Below, piece after piece: positions 6,957-36,339 of a DNA stretch of 64,000 bases; position 1 is the stretch's first letter; every line of letters begins with the position of its first letter. The stretch is taken from positions 806,001-870,000 of the forward strand of contig NZ_JBFOHP010000002.1 in assembly GCF_040907265.1 (NCBI RefSeq), given 5' to 3'. The notes under the pieces were generated by a model that saw only the letters and a list, made by a program, of their open reading frames with translations, did not search any database and was not told where the DNA came from. Origin of the DNA: Streptomyces sclerotialus (GTDB taxonomy: Bacteria > Actinomycetota > Actinomycetes > Streptomycetales > Streptomycetaceae). The position numbers and the translations under genes are program-made.

Positions 6957-7642
6957 CCTTCACCGGATTTCCGCCCGGCGCGCTGCGCCTGTACGCGGAC
7001 CTCGCTGCCGACAACACCAAGGAGGCGTGGCGGCTGCGCCACCGCGAGGTGTACGAGCGGGACGTGCGGGCGCCGATGGACGCGCTGGCCGGCGAGCTCA
7101 CCGAGGTTTTCGGTGAGCTCGCCGGGCCGGACGGGGTGCGGGTGCTCGGCCCCGTCCGCGACACCCGGATGTCGCACGACAAGTCCCCGTACAAGACCTA
7201 CCAGGGCGCGTACCTGGACGTGCTGCCCTGTCTCGGGTTCTGGGTGCATCTGGACCGGGAGGGGCTGTACGTCTCCGGGCGGTACTACCCGTACGCCGGT
7301 GCCGAGGTCGCCCGGTACCGCGCCGCCGTCGACGATCCGCACAGTGGCGGTGAACTGGCCGCGATCACGGCGGAGTTGGCGGCACGGGGTTTCACGATCG
7401 GCGGTGACCGGCTGAAGTCCCGGCCGCGCGGGGTCCCGGCGGACCACCCGCGCCTGGGTCTCCTCCGGCACCGCAAGATCGATGCCGGGCGCCGCTACGG
7501 CCCGGGGCCCGACGTCCACACGGCCCGCGCCGGGGAGCTGGTCCGCGAGACCTGGCAGCTGGTCCGTCCGCTGCTGGACTGGGTGGTGGACCACAAGCTC
7601 ACCCCGGAGCCCCGCGACCGAGGAGCTGACGCGCCGTCATGA
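6953..7642 (+). CDS. DUF2461 family protein
   Basis: The 229-residue protein starts at a GTG that overlaps the previous stop (GTGA), and its own stop overlaps the next ATG. It matches the DUF2461/TIGR02453 family by features such as FTGFPPGAL near the start, the NTKEAWRLRHREVYERDV region (usually N-x-K-x-W-F-x-x-x-R-x-x-Y) and a basic SHDKSPYKTYQGAYL stretch. The biochemical function of the family is unknown to me. No signal peptide or membrane segment is visible. Its place inside a chain of translationally coupled biosynthetic genes suggests a pathway role or a passenger role, which sequence alone cannot settle. Confidence 0.8.
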   Translation: MTFTGFPPGALRLYADLAADNTKEAWRLRHREVYERDVRAPMDALAGELTEVFGELAGPDGVRVLGPVRDTRMSHDKSPYKTYQGAYLDVLPCLGFWVHLDREGLYVSGRYYPYAGAEVARYRAAVDDPHSGGELAAITAELAARGFTIGGDRLKSRPRGVPADHPRLGLLRHRKIDAGRRYGPGPDVHTARAGELVRETWQLVRPLLDWVVDHKLTPEPRDRGADAPS

Positions 7643-8733
7643 CCACCGAGACCGTCGATCTGCGCAGCGACACGGTGACCCGGCCGACCGCGGGGATGCG
7701 CGCGGCGATGGCGTCCGCCGAGGTCGGGGACGCCCTGTTCGGCGAAGATCCCACCGTACGCGCGCTGGAGGAGCGGCTGGCCGGCATGTTCGGCTTCTCC
7801 GGCGCGCTGTTCGTGCCCTCCGGCGTGATGGCCAACCAGATCGGGCTGCGGCTGCTGGCCGGCCCCGGTGAGGAGCTGGTGTGCGACGCCGAGGCGCACA
7901 TCCTGGCGCACGAGGAGGCCGCGCCCGCCCGGTACGGCGGGATCCAGACGCGCACCGTGTCGGCCGGGCGCGGCCTGGTCACCGCCGAGGCGCTGGCCGG
8001 GGCCCTGCGGGCCGGGAACGCGTACACGCTCGGCACCCGCGCGGTGGAGGTGGAGCAGACGCACACCCGCGCGGGCGGCACGGTCCAGCCGCTGGAGACG
8101 CTGCGCGCGGTACGGAAACTGACCGCTGAGGCGGGCGTCGCCGTGCACATCGACGGGGCGCGGATCTGGAACGCCGGGGCCGCGACCAGGACGCCGTGGG
8201 CCGAGTACGGGGCGCCGGTCGCCGACTCGCTCTCGGTGTGCCTCTCGAAGGGGCTCGGCGCGCCGGTCGGCTCGGTGCTGCTGCTCCCCGCCGAACAACT
8301 CTCCCGCGCACGGAAGTTGGCGCACGGACTGGGCGGCGGGATGCGGCAGTCGGGCATCCTGGCGGCCGCGGGGCTGTACGCCCTGGACCACCATGTGGCG
8401 CGGCTCGCCGAGGACCACGAGAACGCCGCGCTGCTGGCGGCGGGGCTGCGGGACGCGGGGTTCGCCGTGCGCCCGCCGGAGACCAACATCGTCCTCGTCG
8501 AGGCGCCCGGCGCCGGGGACGTCGTGGCACGGGCGGCCCGGGAGGGGGTGCTGGTGACCGCGCCCGGTCCCGGAACGGTCCGGCTGGTCACCCATCTGGA
8601 CGCAGGACGACAGGCGTGCCGACGGGCCGTCGGGGTCCTGGTGACGGCGCTGCGAGAGGCCGGAACCGGGGCGCGGCGGAGCGCGGACACGGAACACACG
8701 GCGACAGCGGAAGAGAGCACAGAAGCAGCATGA
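7639..8733 (+). CDS. L-threonine-aldolase-type PLP enzyme, predicted beta-hydroxytryptophan retro-aldolase
   Basis: The 364-residue protein is a low-specificity threonine/beta-hydroxy-amino-acid aldolase. It opens with the family signature DLRSDTVTRPT, has the GDALFGEDPTV motif and a PLP lysine at about Lys204 in CLSKGLGAPVGS. The family splits L-threonine into glycine and acetaldehyde, and aryl beta-hydroxy amino acids into glycine and an aryl aldehyde. In this cluster a halogenase, an A-T/P450 hydroxylation cassette and an aldehyde dehydrogenase are present, so the likely substrate is (chloro)-beta-hydroxytryptophan, giving an indole-3-carbaldehyde. The opposite, synthetic direction is possible. 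It overlaps its neighbours by ATGA at both ends. A plain catabolic threonine aldolase is the main alternative. Confidence 0.9.
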   Translation: MTTETVDLRSDTVTRPTAGMRAAMASAEVGDALFGEDPTVRALEERLAGMFGFSGALFVPSGVMANQIGLRLLAGPGEELVCDAEAHILAHEEAAPARYGGIQTRTVSAGRGLVTAEALAGALRAGNAYTLGTRAVEVEQTHTRAGGTVQPLETLRAVRKLTAEAGVAVHIDGARIWNAGAATRTPWAEYGAPVADSLSVCLSKGLGAPVGSVLLLPAEQLSRARKLAHGLGGGMRQSGILAAAGLYALDHHVARLAEDHENAALLAAGLRDAGFAVRPPETNIVLVEAPGAGDVVARAAREGVLVTAPGPGTVRLVTHLDAGRQACRRAVGVLVTALREAGTGARRSADTEHTATAEESTEAA

Positions 8734-34562: not shown

Positions 34563-34734
34563 CGCTTCCTCCCGGAAGTCGCTCGCAGGCCGTTCTGCCT
34601 GCGGCGAGTGTCTTCCGGTGCTCTACGCGGGCCCTATAACCGGCGGGGCCCGCGCGTGTAGGTCCGGCATAGGGCGGCCCGCCACTGTTCTCGGCACGAC
34701 CACCCCGACCGGCCCGTAGAAATGAGGCTGTTCC
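34563..34734. promoter_or_regulatory. Divergent promoter region between small SARP and halogenase
   Basis: The 172-bp region must carry promoters for both directions. It contains an inverted repeat, CGCGGGCCC at 34626-34634 and GGGCCCGCG at 34646-34654, with an 11-nt spacer holding the AT-rich TATAA. This could be an operator or a hairpin between the divergent transcripts. I see no convincing -35/-10 pairs. Confidence 0.45.
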
Positions 34735-36339
34735 ATGACCAGCAGCGACACCCGACTGAAGAAGGTCGTCATCCTGGGCGGCGGCACGGCCGGCTGGATG
34801 ACCGCCGCGTACCTGGGCAAGGCGCTCCAGGGCACCGTCGACATCACCGTCCTGGAGGCGCCGGCCATCCCGCGCATCGGCGTCGGCGAGGCCACCGTGC
34901 CCAACCTCCAGCGTGCCTTCTTCGACTACCTCGGTATCGCCGAGGACGAGTGGATGCGGGAGTGCAACGCCAGCTTCAAGATGGCCGTGCGGTTCGTGAA
35001 CTGGCGCACCGACGGGCAGGGCGAAGCCACGGCGCGCGAGCTGCCGGACGGCCGGCCCGACCACTTCTACCACCCGTTCGGCCTGCTCCCGGACTACGAC
35101 CAGACCCCGCTGTCGCACTACTGGTACAAGCGCAAGTACGAGGGCCGCACCACCGAGCCGTTCGACTACGCCTGCTTCCGCGAGCCCCCGGTGATGGACG
35201 CGATGAAGGCGCCGCGCTGGCTCGACGGCCGGCCGGCCACCCGCTACGCCTGGCACTTCGACGCGCAGCTGGTCGCCGACTTCCTGCGCCGCTTCGCCAC
35301 CGAGAAGCAGGGCGTGCACCACGTCGAGGACGAGATGACGCGCGTCGAGCAGGACGAGCGCGGCTACGTGACGGCGCTGCGCACCAAGGGCGGCCGGGTG
35401 CTGGACGCCGACCTCTTCGTGGACTGCTCGGGCTTCCGCGGTCTGCTCATCAACAAGGCGATGGCGGAGCCGTTCCTCGACATGAGCGACCACCTGCTGT
35501 GCGACAGCGCGGTGGCCACCGCGATCCCGCACGACGACGAGGCGGAGGGTGTCGAGCCGTACACCTCCTCGATCGCCATGTCCTCCGGCTGGGCCTGGAA
35601 GATCCCGATGCTGGGCCGGTCCGGCACCGGCTACGTGTACTCCAGCAAGTTCACCGACCAGGACACCGCCACCCGTGAGTTCGCGCGGATGTGGGGCCTG
35701 GACCCGGAGGAGACGCAGTTCAACCACATCCGCTTCCGGGTCGGGCGCAACCGCCGGGCGTGGGTGAAGAACGTCGTCAGCATCGGTCTGTCGTCCTGCT
35801 TCGTGGAGCCGCTGGAGTCGACCGGCATCTACTTCATCACCGCGGCGATCTACCAGCTGGCCAAGCACTTCCCTGACAAGACGTTCAACCAGGGTCTGGT
35901 GGACAGCTTCAACCACGAGATCGAGGTGATGTTCGACGATACCCGCGACTTCATCCAGGCGCACTTCTTCTACGCGCCGCGCAACGACACGCCGTTCTGG
36001 CGGGCCAACAAGGAGCTGAAGCTCGCCGACAACATCAAGAAGAAGATCGCCGCGTACAAGGCGGGGCTGCCCATCAACTCGCCGATCACCGACGAGTCGA
36101 CGTACTACGGGAACTTCGAGGCCGAGTTCCGCAACTTCTGGACCAACGGCAGCTACTACTGCATCTTCGCCGGCCTCGGGCTGGAGCCGGACGCCCCGCT
36201 GCCCGCCCTCGACCACAAGCCCGAGTCGGTGGCCGGTGCCGAACCGCTCTTCGAGACGGTCAAGCGCCAGCAGCAGAACCTGCTGGAGACCCTGCCCAGC
36301 ACATACGACTACCTGCGCCTGCTGCACGGCAAGGCGTAA
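34735..36339 (+). CDS. Flavin-dependent tryptophan halogenase (RebH/PrnA-like)
   Basis: The 534-residue FADH2-dependent halogenase chlorinates the indole ring of free tryptophan. The dinucleotide motif [10 protein letters not shown], the catalytic lysine Lys82 ([10 protein letters not shown]) and the WxWxIP motif (GWAWKIP) are intact. Long stretches, such as [29 protein letters not shown] and [13 protein letters not shown], look very like the RebH/PrnA tryptophan 7-halogenase group as I remember it; the residue after this pocket loop (W-T-N-G-S) differs from RebH (W-N-N-S-N). Regioselectivity therefore needs testing: 7-chloro is the simple reading, while JBIR-34/-35 carry 6-chloro. The start has a GAGG site. 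A flavin reductase follows, which supplies FADH2. Confidence 0.93.

Follow-up and report, generated by a model that had tools for sequence, protein, structure and literature searches.

A tambromycin-type gene cluster in Streptomyces sclerotialus with a probable retro-aldol route to its indole starter and DUF2461 as a tentative candidate for the ring oxygen

The tambromycin cluster (tbr; MIBiG BGC0001368) is described in passages of one source as known from 46 Streptomyces genomes (PMC8466323), and in passages of another as strongly conserved in groups of Streptomyces virginiae, with some strains lacking the phosphopantetheinyl transferase (PMC13273461). Tambromycin A is given with m/z 536.1907 and tambromycin B as C20H23ClN4O5 (PMC8466323). 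For the cluster of JBIR-34 and JBIR-35 (fmo), the passages drawn on here identify PDB entry 6lta as FmoA3 and name its residues A688, N730 and S760 (PMC11253843), and FmoH provides the role that we take for an α-methylserine synthase of the serine hydroxymethyltransferase (SHMT) family (PMC8706051). Here we describe a cluster in a 64,000-nucleotide stretch of Streptomyces sclerotialus (contig NZ_JBFOHP010000002.1, positions 806,001 to 870,000; hereafter the window), which is part of an 8.28-Mb genome. The cluster extends over about 235–38342 of the window (Table 1). On its domain content, gene order, aldolase linkage and the loss of Asp235 from the loading adenylation (A) domain, we read it, with a probability of roughly 0.76, as a tambromycin-type nonribosomal peptide cluster whose starter would be made by tryptophan chlorination, β-hydroxylation, retro-aldol cleavage and oxidation.

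We compared 24 window genes with 16 named Streptomyces genomes, chosen by a P450 at 87% identity or more, counting as a match 52% identity or more. Gene order is kept, with 23 or 24 of the 24 genes, in 12 of the 16, which places the cluster beyond chance. All 24 lie in the same order on one stretch in seven genomes (Ru73, NRRL S-118 with a DUF2461 remnant, H27-S2, S. avidinii, S. virginiae, S. wuyuanensis and NRRL F-2664), and 23 are in order in five (TRM49041, TRM70350, NBC_01214, CG 926 and S. yangpuensis). In this comparison no phosphopantetheinyl transferase match was found in the first four of these five; the regulator SARP1 was not found in S. yangpuensis, where its position is the edge of the compared stretch. 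The remaining four clusters are visible only in part, and what is visible keeps the order: the contig of PKU-EA00015 ends behind the aldehyde dehydrogenase, and those of A3M-1-3, S. amritsarensis and ISL-10 are each split over two contigs. Most window proteins are 70–95% identical to their counterparts in the compared genomes, and the close relatives of the Cy-A-T module are all from Streptomyces, except one from Frankia (75%).

Three observations identify the window as tambromycin-type. The first is the gene order shared with S. virginiae, as the tambromycin cluster is reported from this lineage. The second is the product composition: of ten compositions calculated within a residue frame that we set, only one fits both tambromycin A and B, namely a chlorinated indole acid that carries an additional ring oxygen and a single methyl, two α-methylserines (one in B), lysine less two hydrogens (Lys-2H) and one cyclodehydration. 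The third is the match to FmoA3 (6lta), which reaches 1170 bits in the window against 2040 bits in S. malaysiense and 2000 bits in S. hygroscopicus, whose clusters (here JBIR-type; 80 kb of each compared) stand in for fmo. By this score the window lacks a close FmoA3 orthologue; the equivalents of A688, N730 and S760 are kept in its Cy-A-T (mapped on the 6lta alignment, chain offset 16). That the window holds the JBIR-34/-35 cluster itself is very improbable. The starter and methyloxazoline half is built alike in both, but the scores differ as described, so do the extension modules, and no relative of the window's acyl-CoA dehydrogenase (ACAD) pair and no close relative of its aldolase was found in the 80 kb of either JBIR-type cluster. 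A reading made from the window's sequence alone (the sequence-only reading) had placed the product beside JBIR-34/-35; tambromycin takes that place as the nearest known system. In S. malaysiense, Cy-A-T and SHMT form one continuous open reading frame (ORF) of 1579 amino acids (L094:7376–12115), and a single protein may there both make α-methylserine and activate it.

We infer the catalytic steps and their order as follows. First, a Thal-type halogenase with its reductase would place chlorine on C6 of free tryptophan. The A-T didomain, with the MbtH-like protein, would load the chlorotryptophan, the P450 would hydroxylate the β carbon on the carrier and the thioesterase would release the product. 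A GntG-type pyridoxal phosphate (PLP)-dependent aldolase would then split β-hydroxy-6-chlorotryptophan into 6-chloroindole-3-carbaldehyde and glycine, and the aldehyde dehydrogenase would convert the aldehyde to the acid. The acid would be taken up by the Asp235-less A domain of the 23962–27912 synthetase, whose methyltransferase (MT) domain would add the single methyl, and Cy domains would couple it to α-methylserine as a 4-methyloxazoline. The sequence-only reading had proposed a route of chlorination, A-T/P450 β-hydroxylation, retro-aldol cleavage and oxidation; domain content and comparison support it, with catalysis predicted rather than proven. Each of the eight enzymes which that reading had named (halogenase, reductase, A-T didomain, thioesterase, MbtH, P450, aldolase and aldehyde dehydrogenase) has a Pfam match at the coordinates given there, and all eight lie inside one cluster. 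Its division into three operons is compatible, as far as gene layout goes, with the strands and 4-base overlaps: a forward string of Cy-A-T, SHMT, DUF2461, aldolase and GNAT genes (overlaps at 5559/5562, 6953/6956, 7639/7642 and 8730/8733), a reverse group from 34562 downwards, and a forward group of halogenase, reductase and exchanger from 34735.

Among solved structures the halogenase matches Thal best (930 bits), against 876 bits for RebH, 385 bits for tryptophan 5-halogenase 2wet and 380 bits for 6-halogenase 5hy5; it is nearer to Thal than to RebH, to which the sequence-only reading had likened it. That relationship fits 6-chlorination, but the score leaves the position unfixed, because 5hy5, itself a 6-halogenase, gives just 380 bits. 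The best solved relative of the P450 is 4l0e (303 bits), which we take to be P450sky, acting on carrier-bound amino acids. The A domains were compared at a column that we take to be Asp235 in GrsA numbering, anchored on FmoA3 motifs. The aspartate is kept in the stand-alone A-T in all eight sequences, and is replaced by Ala or Gly in all six loading A domains (window, Frankia, S. malaysiense, S. hygroscopicus, Rhizohabitans and an Actinomycetota metagenome-assembled genome, MAG). A loading domain without Asp235 is expected for an acid that has no α-amine, such as indole-3-carboxylate, and the loss is the best sequence evidence for the proposed breakdown of the amino acid to the indole acid before loading.

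For the lysine-derived part of the product, the ACAD pair would desaturate carrier-bound lysine (α,β), and the side-chain amine would close the pyrrolidine ring. We propose this because of the likeness of ACAD protein 1 to 8hk0 (263 bits; next solved relative 99 bits), a Glu at column 278 in the A domain of the C-A-T module, and the Lys-2H unit of the product; acidic residues at that column presumably accompany basic substrates. The pair (9410–11718) occurs together with the C-A-T and C-A-T-TE genes in tambromycin-type Streptomyces and in Rhizohabitans.

The aldolase is linked to the cluster. It meets the GntG model NF041359 (323.3 bits; cut-off 230), and its PDB relative is an L-allo-threonine aldolase. 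Across 392 genomes of the genus it occurs at 76% identity or more in 11, exactly those 11 that have the P450 at 87% or more; the next 12 genomes have matches at 44–48%. Judged by contig coordinates, seven of the 11 are apparently strains among the 16 named ones, and the two sets therefore overlap and are not independent. It is present in all 20 tambromycin-type clusters (the window, the 16 named Streptomyces and genomes G199, G230 and G269). Frankia canadensis (L090–L091) keeps the aldolase together with SHMT, Cy-A-T, A-T, thioesterase, P450, aldehyde dehydrogenase and halogenase, with differing extension modules and no close ACAD-pair relative on its 76-kb contig. This links the aldolase to the starter half, as Frankia retains it beside the starter and oxazoline genes and without the pair. 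The Frankia cluster as a whole is chimeric, joining a tambromycin-type starter and methyloxazoline genes to other extension modules.

Both JBIR-type clusters carry another PLP aldolase, about 30% identical to that of the window, next to the SARP regulator that belongs to the A-T string; a JBIR-type aldolase gene lies at L095:4644–5678. The clustered S. malaysiense enzyme falls below the GntG cut-off (86 against 230 bits). At 82% identity or more, this aldolase occurs in the two JBIR-type genomes only of the 392, the other matches listed being at 48% or less; at E ≤ 1e-60, 387 of the 392 have a match, mostly a housekeeping-type copy. A 25-protein tree places the two clustered aldolases in separate clades with a branch of 100/100 support between them; the program flags long branches elsewhere in the tree. 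This suggests two independent recruitments of different aldolases for one step in related starter cassettes, and the second cluster-specific aldolase lends circumstantial support to the retro-aldol step. The retro-aldol scheme is, on these comparisons, supported short of proof.

Several observations weigh against the tambromycin-type retro-aldol reading. The tambromycin-like cluster of Rhizohabitans arisaemae comprises halogenase, A-T, P450 and aldehyde dehydrogenase, and no aldolase was found in the surrounding 100 kb; aldolase homologues lie elsewhere in its genome, two of them in the housekeeping-type clade. The Actinomycetota MAG has no aldolase on its 71-kb cluster contig, and a 56% relative lies on a different contig, with no cluster gene in its surroundings. 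No cluster gene was found around the off-cluster homologues at C21 in the MAG and C59 in Rhizohabitans (C8 and C4 were left out). A-T codes nearly identical to that of the window occur in cassettes beside UbiA prenyltransferases, and the code is therefore not diagnostic of tryptophan. The stretch of about 6 kb behind the GNAT gene of ISL-10 (L036:17200–23333) showed neither an ACAD pair nor a C-A-T gene, unlike in the other clusters in which this part is seen, and this cluster may differ from the others.

The missing aldolases in Rhizohabitans and the MAG, together with the mostly housekeeping-type relatives of the JBIR-type enzyme in 387 genomes, favour an alternative in which SHMT or a housekeeping aldolase performs the cleavage and the clustered aldolase lies outside the starter route, for example removing unwanted β-hydroxy amino acids. 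We consider this improbable, since the aldolase is linked in all 11 genus genomes that have this P450, in all 16 named genomes and in Frankia, and since the JBIR-type genomes both have a clustered aldolase of a different kind. We thus retain the clustered aldolase as the probable retro-aldol enzyme.

Two genomes carry A-T/thioesterase/P450 cassettes that include a UbiA prenyltransferase and whose A-domain residues are almost those of the window (G360, L163:9944–18073; G164, L164:5321–12180). In both, a DUF711 protein adjoins the P450 at the place where the aldolase would be needed, followed in G360 by an aldehyde dehydrogenase.

At the ring oxygen the claim of the sequence-only reading that every step is present, sound as to the gene identities, falls short: no gene of known function accounts for this atom, and that reading left unlisted a DUF2461 gene between the SHMT and aldolase genes, overlapping each by 4 bases. 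Its statement that no gene explains 4-hydroxylation stands for genes of known function, with the DUF2461 protein as a tentative candidate. No other PF09365 match was found in the genome; against TIGR02453 the protein scores 80.2 bits, below the NCBIfam cut-off of 105.4. The gene is whole in 18 of the 20 tambromycin-type clusters and present in four related ones. It is broken in NRRL S-118 (L040:14829–15122), where it is mostly gone, and in G199 (L165:6747–6992), and the other cluster genes seen are present in both; the genome of NRRL S-118 showed no further PF09365 hit.

There is an even chance that the oxygen comes instead from the P450, as a second oxidation by the same enzyme, or from an enzyme encoded outside the cluster, with DUF2461 otherwise employed. 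A single P450 is found among the cluster genes scanned, the predicted DUF2461 model gave no clear match to a characterized oxygenase, and there are DUF2461 genes elsewhere, in different contexts and in other genomes that lack the cluster. On the other side, DUF2461 is the only gene without an assigned role common to the tambromycin-type, Frankia, JBIR-type and Rhizohabitans clusters among the genes compared. It is the best remaining candidate, with a low chance of being right; that it represents a new enzyme class hydroxylating the starter indole ring at C4 is a possibility on the unlikely side. If so, DUF2461 would account for the single ring atom to which no enzyme is assigned in tambromycin and JBIR-34/-35, this would be the first function for a family mentioned in just three papers of the literature searched, a single time in each, and strains with the natural loss would make a compound lacking the ring oxygen, with a calculated m/z of 520.1957.

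DUF2461 also occurs in another Cy-containing nonribosomal peptide synthetase (NRPS) cluster, in G391 (L146–L147) and G214 (L148–L149). Pfam matches in the G391 cluster comprise an AMP ligase, an FAD monooxygenase, a class II DAHP synthase, a PNPOx/PhzG-type protein and an Irp3-like thiazolinyl imine reductase.

Among the other cluster genes, the stand-alone condensation-type protein is 33% identical to the C part of other modules and has HLGVFDG for HHxxxDG, with Leu in place of the second His; the protein may thus lack activity or serve a different role. The AlkZ-like DNA glycosylase, found also in Frankia and in both JBIR-type stretches, suggests a DNA-reactive product or another function, with self-protection possible (a reading for which passages of PMC9040887 are cited). 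A tRNA-Leu call at 13777–13855, inside the C-A-T gene, is probably a false positive. Apart from the cluster, the window holds at 51438–63877 what is likely a polysaccharide locus, with glycosyltransferases, a PfkB/cytidylyltransferase fusion and an epimerase-type gene. Gene borders in Table 1 rest on mechanical lists of ORFs and on a codon-composition script, and start codons are approximate.

Table 1. Genes of the tambromycin-type cluster in the window, with proposed roles
Feature	Coordinates	Strand	Evidence
SARP-type regulator (BTAD, NB-ARC), SARP1	235–2178	+	Pfam; conserved in gene-order comparison
NRPS Cy-A-T, FmoA3 relative; proposed α-methylserine loading and 4-methyloxazoline formation	2212–5562	+	PDB 6lta 1170 bits
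SHMT-family enzyme, proposed α-methylserine synthase (FmoH-like)	5559–6956	+	Pfam SHMT 404 bits
DUF2461 protein (PF09365), candidate for ring hydroxylation	6953–7642	+	Pfam 106.2 bits, cut-off 22.8
PLP-dependent aldolase (threonine aldolase/GntG subfamily), proposed retro-aldol on β-hydroxy-6-chlorotryptophan	7639–8733	+	Pfam Beta_elim_lyase 295 bits; NCBIfam NF041359
GNAT acetyltransferase	8730–9311	+	Pfam; conserved in gene-order comparison
ACAD-like protein 2, likely partner of protein 1	9410–10531	-	Sequence; NCBIfam
ACAD-like protein 1, proposed desaturation of carrier-bound lysine	10528–11718	-	Pfam; PDB 8hk0
Stand-alone condensation-type protein, motif HLGVFDG	11729–13189	-	Sequence; motif scan
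NRPS C-A-T, proposed lysine/pyrrolidine residue	13186–16536	-	Pfam (ORF 13186–16716); A-domain residues
NRPS C-A-T-TE, terminal module	16538–20827	-	Pfam
MFS exporter	20856–22154	-	Pfam
AlkZ-like DNA glycosylase, possible self-protection	22244–23305	-	Pfam 185 bits
Phosphopantetheinyl transferase	23318–23962	-	Pfam
Loading NRPS A-T-Cy-MT, A domain without Asp235, MT proposed for single methyl	23962–27912	-	Pfam (ORF 23962–28365); Cy motif DFLVADAWS
Cytochrome P450, proposed β-hydroxylase of carrier-bound (chloro)tryptophan	27909–29135	-	Pfam p450 86 bits; best PDB 4l0e 303 bits
MbtH-like protein	29137–29325	-	Pfam MbtH 62 bits
Type II thioesterase, proposed β-hydroxy amino acid release	29365–30114	-	Pfam Thioesterase 107 bits
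Stand-alone A-T didomain, Asp235 kept	30119–31897	-	Pfam AMP-binding 214 bits and PP-binding 55 bits
Aldehyde dehydrogenase, proposed indole-3-carbaldehyde oxidation	31894–33468	-	Pfam Aldedh 505 bits
SARP-type regulator	33516–34562	-	Pfam
Flavin-dependent tryptophan halogenase, nearest Thal (6-halogenase)	34735–36339	+	Pfam Trp_halogenase 548 bits; PDB
Flavin reductase	36458–37075	+	Pfam Flavin_Reduct 124 bits in ORF 36236–37075; start chosen at 36458
Na+/H+ exchanger-type membrane protein	37062–38342	+	Pfam; conserved in gene-order comparison

The window cluster adds another example to a known kind and is in itself largely ordinary. The value lies in the comparison: two related starter cassettes with different PLP aldolases strengthen the retro-aldol proposal circumstantially, the nearest relative is corrected to tambromycin, and one testable candidate is added in DUF2461, a family tied to the same cassettes, whose two natural losses open its role to mass spectrometry. 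NikP1/NikP2/NikQ-type cassettes, which we take to consist of A-T, MbtH, thioesterase and P450 for carrier-bound β-hydroxylation, share that set with the window, which additionally has an aldolase and an aldehyde dehydrogenase that would degrade the amino acid. Within the GntG aldolase family, the window enzyme passes the subfamily model, and its predicted substrate is a β-hydroxytryptophan. The JBIR-type clusters share with the window A-T, thioesterase, P450, halogenase, reductase, aldehyde dehydrogenase, A-T-Cy-MT, Cy-A-T, SHMT, the AlkZ-like protein and DUF2461; they differ in the aldolase clade, the lack of the ACAD pair and the extension modules, and the window's FmoA3 relative is far more distant. 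With the tambromycin cluster, as represented by S. virginiae, the window shares its gene order, as do 11 other named Streptomyces and, in part, four more; no product-changing gene difference was found, judged from genomes of the lineage rather than the BGC0001368 sequence, and the predicted building blocks are compatible with tambromycin A and B.

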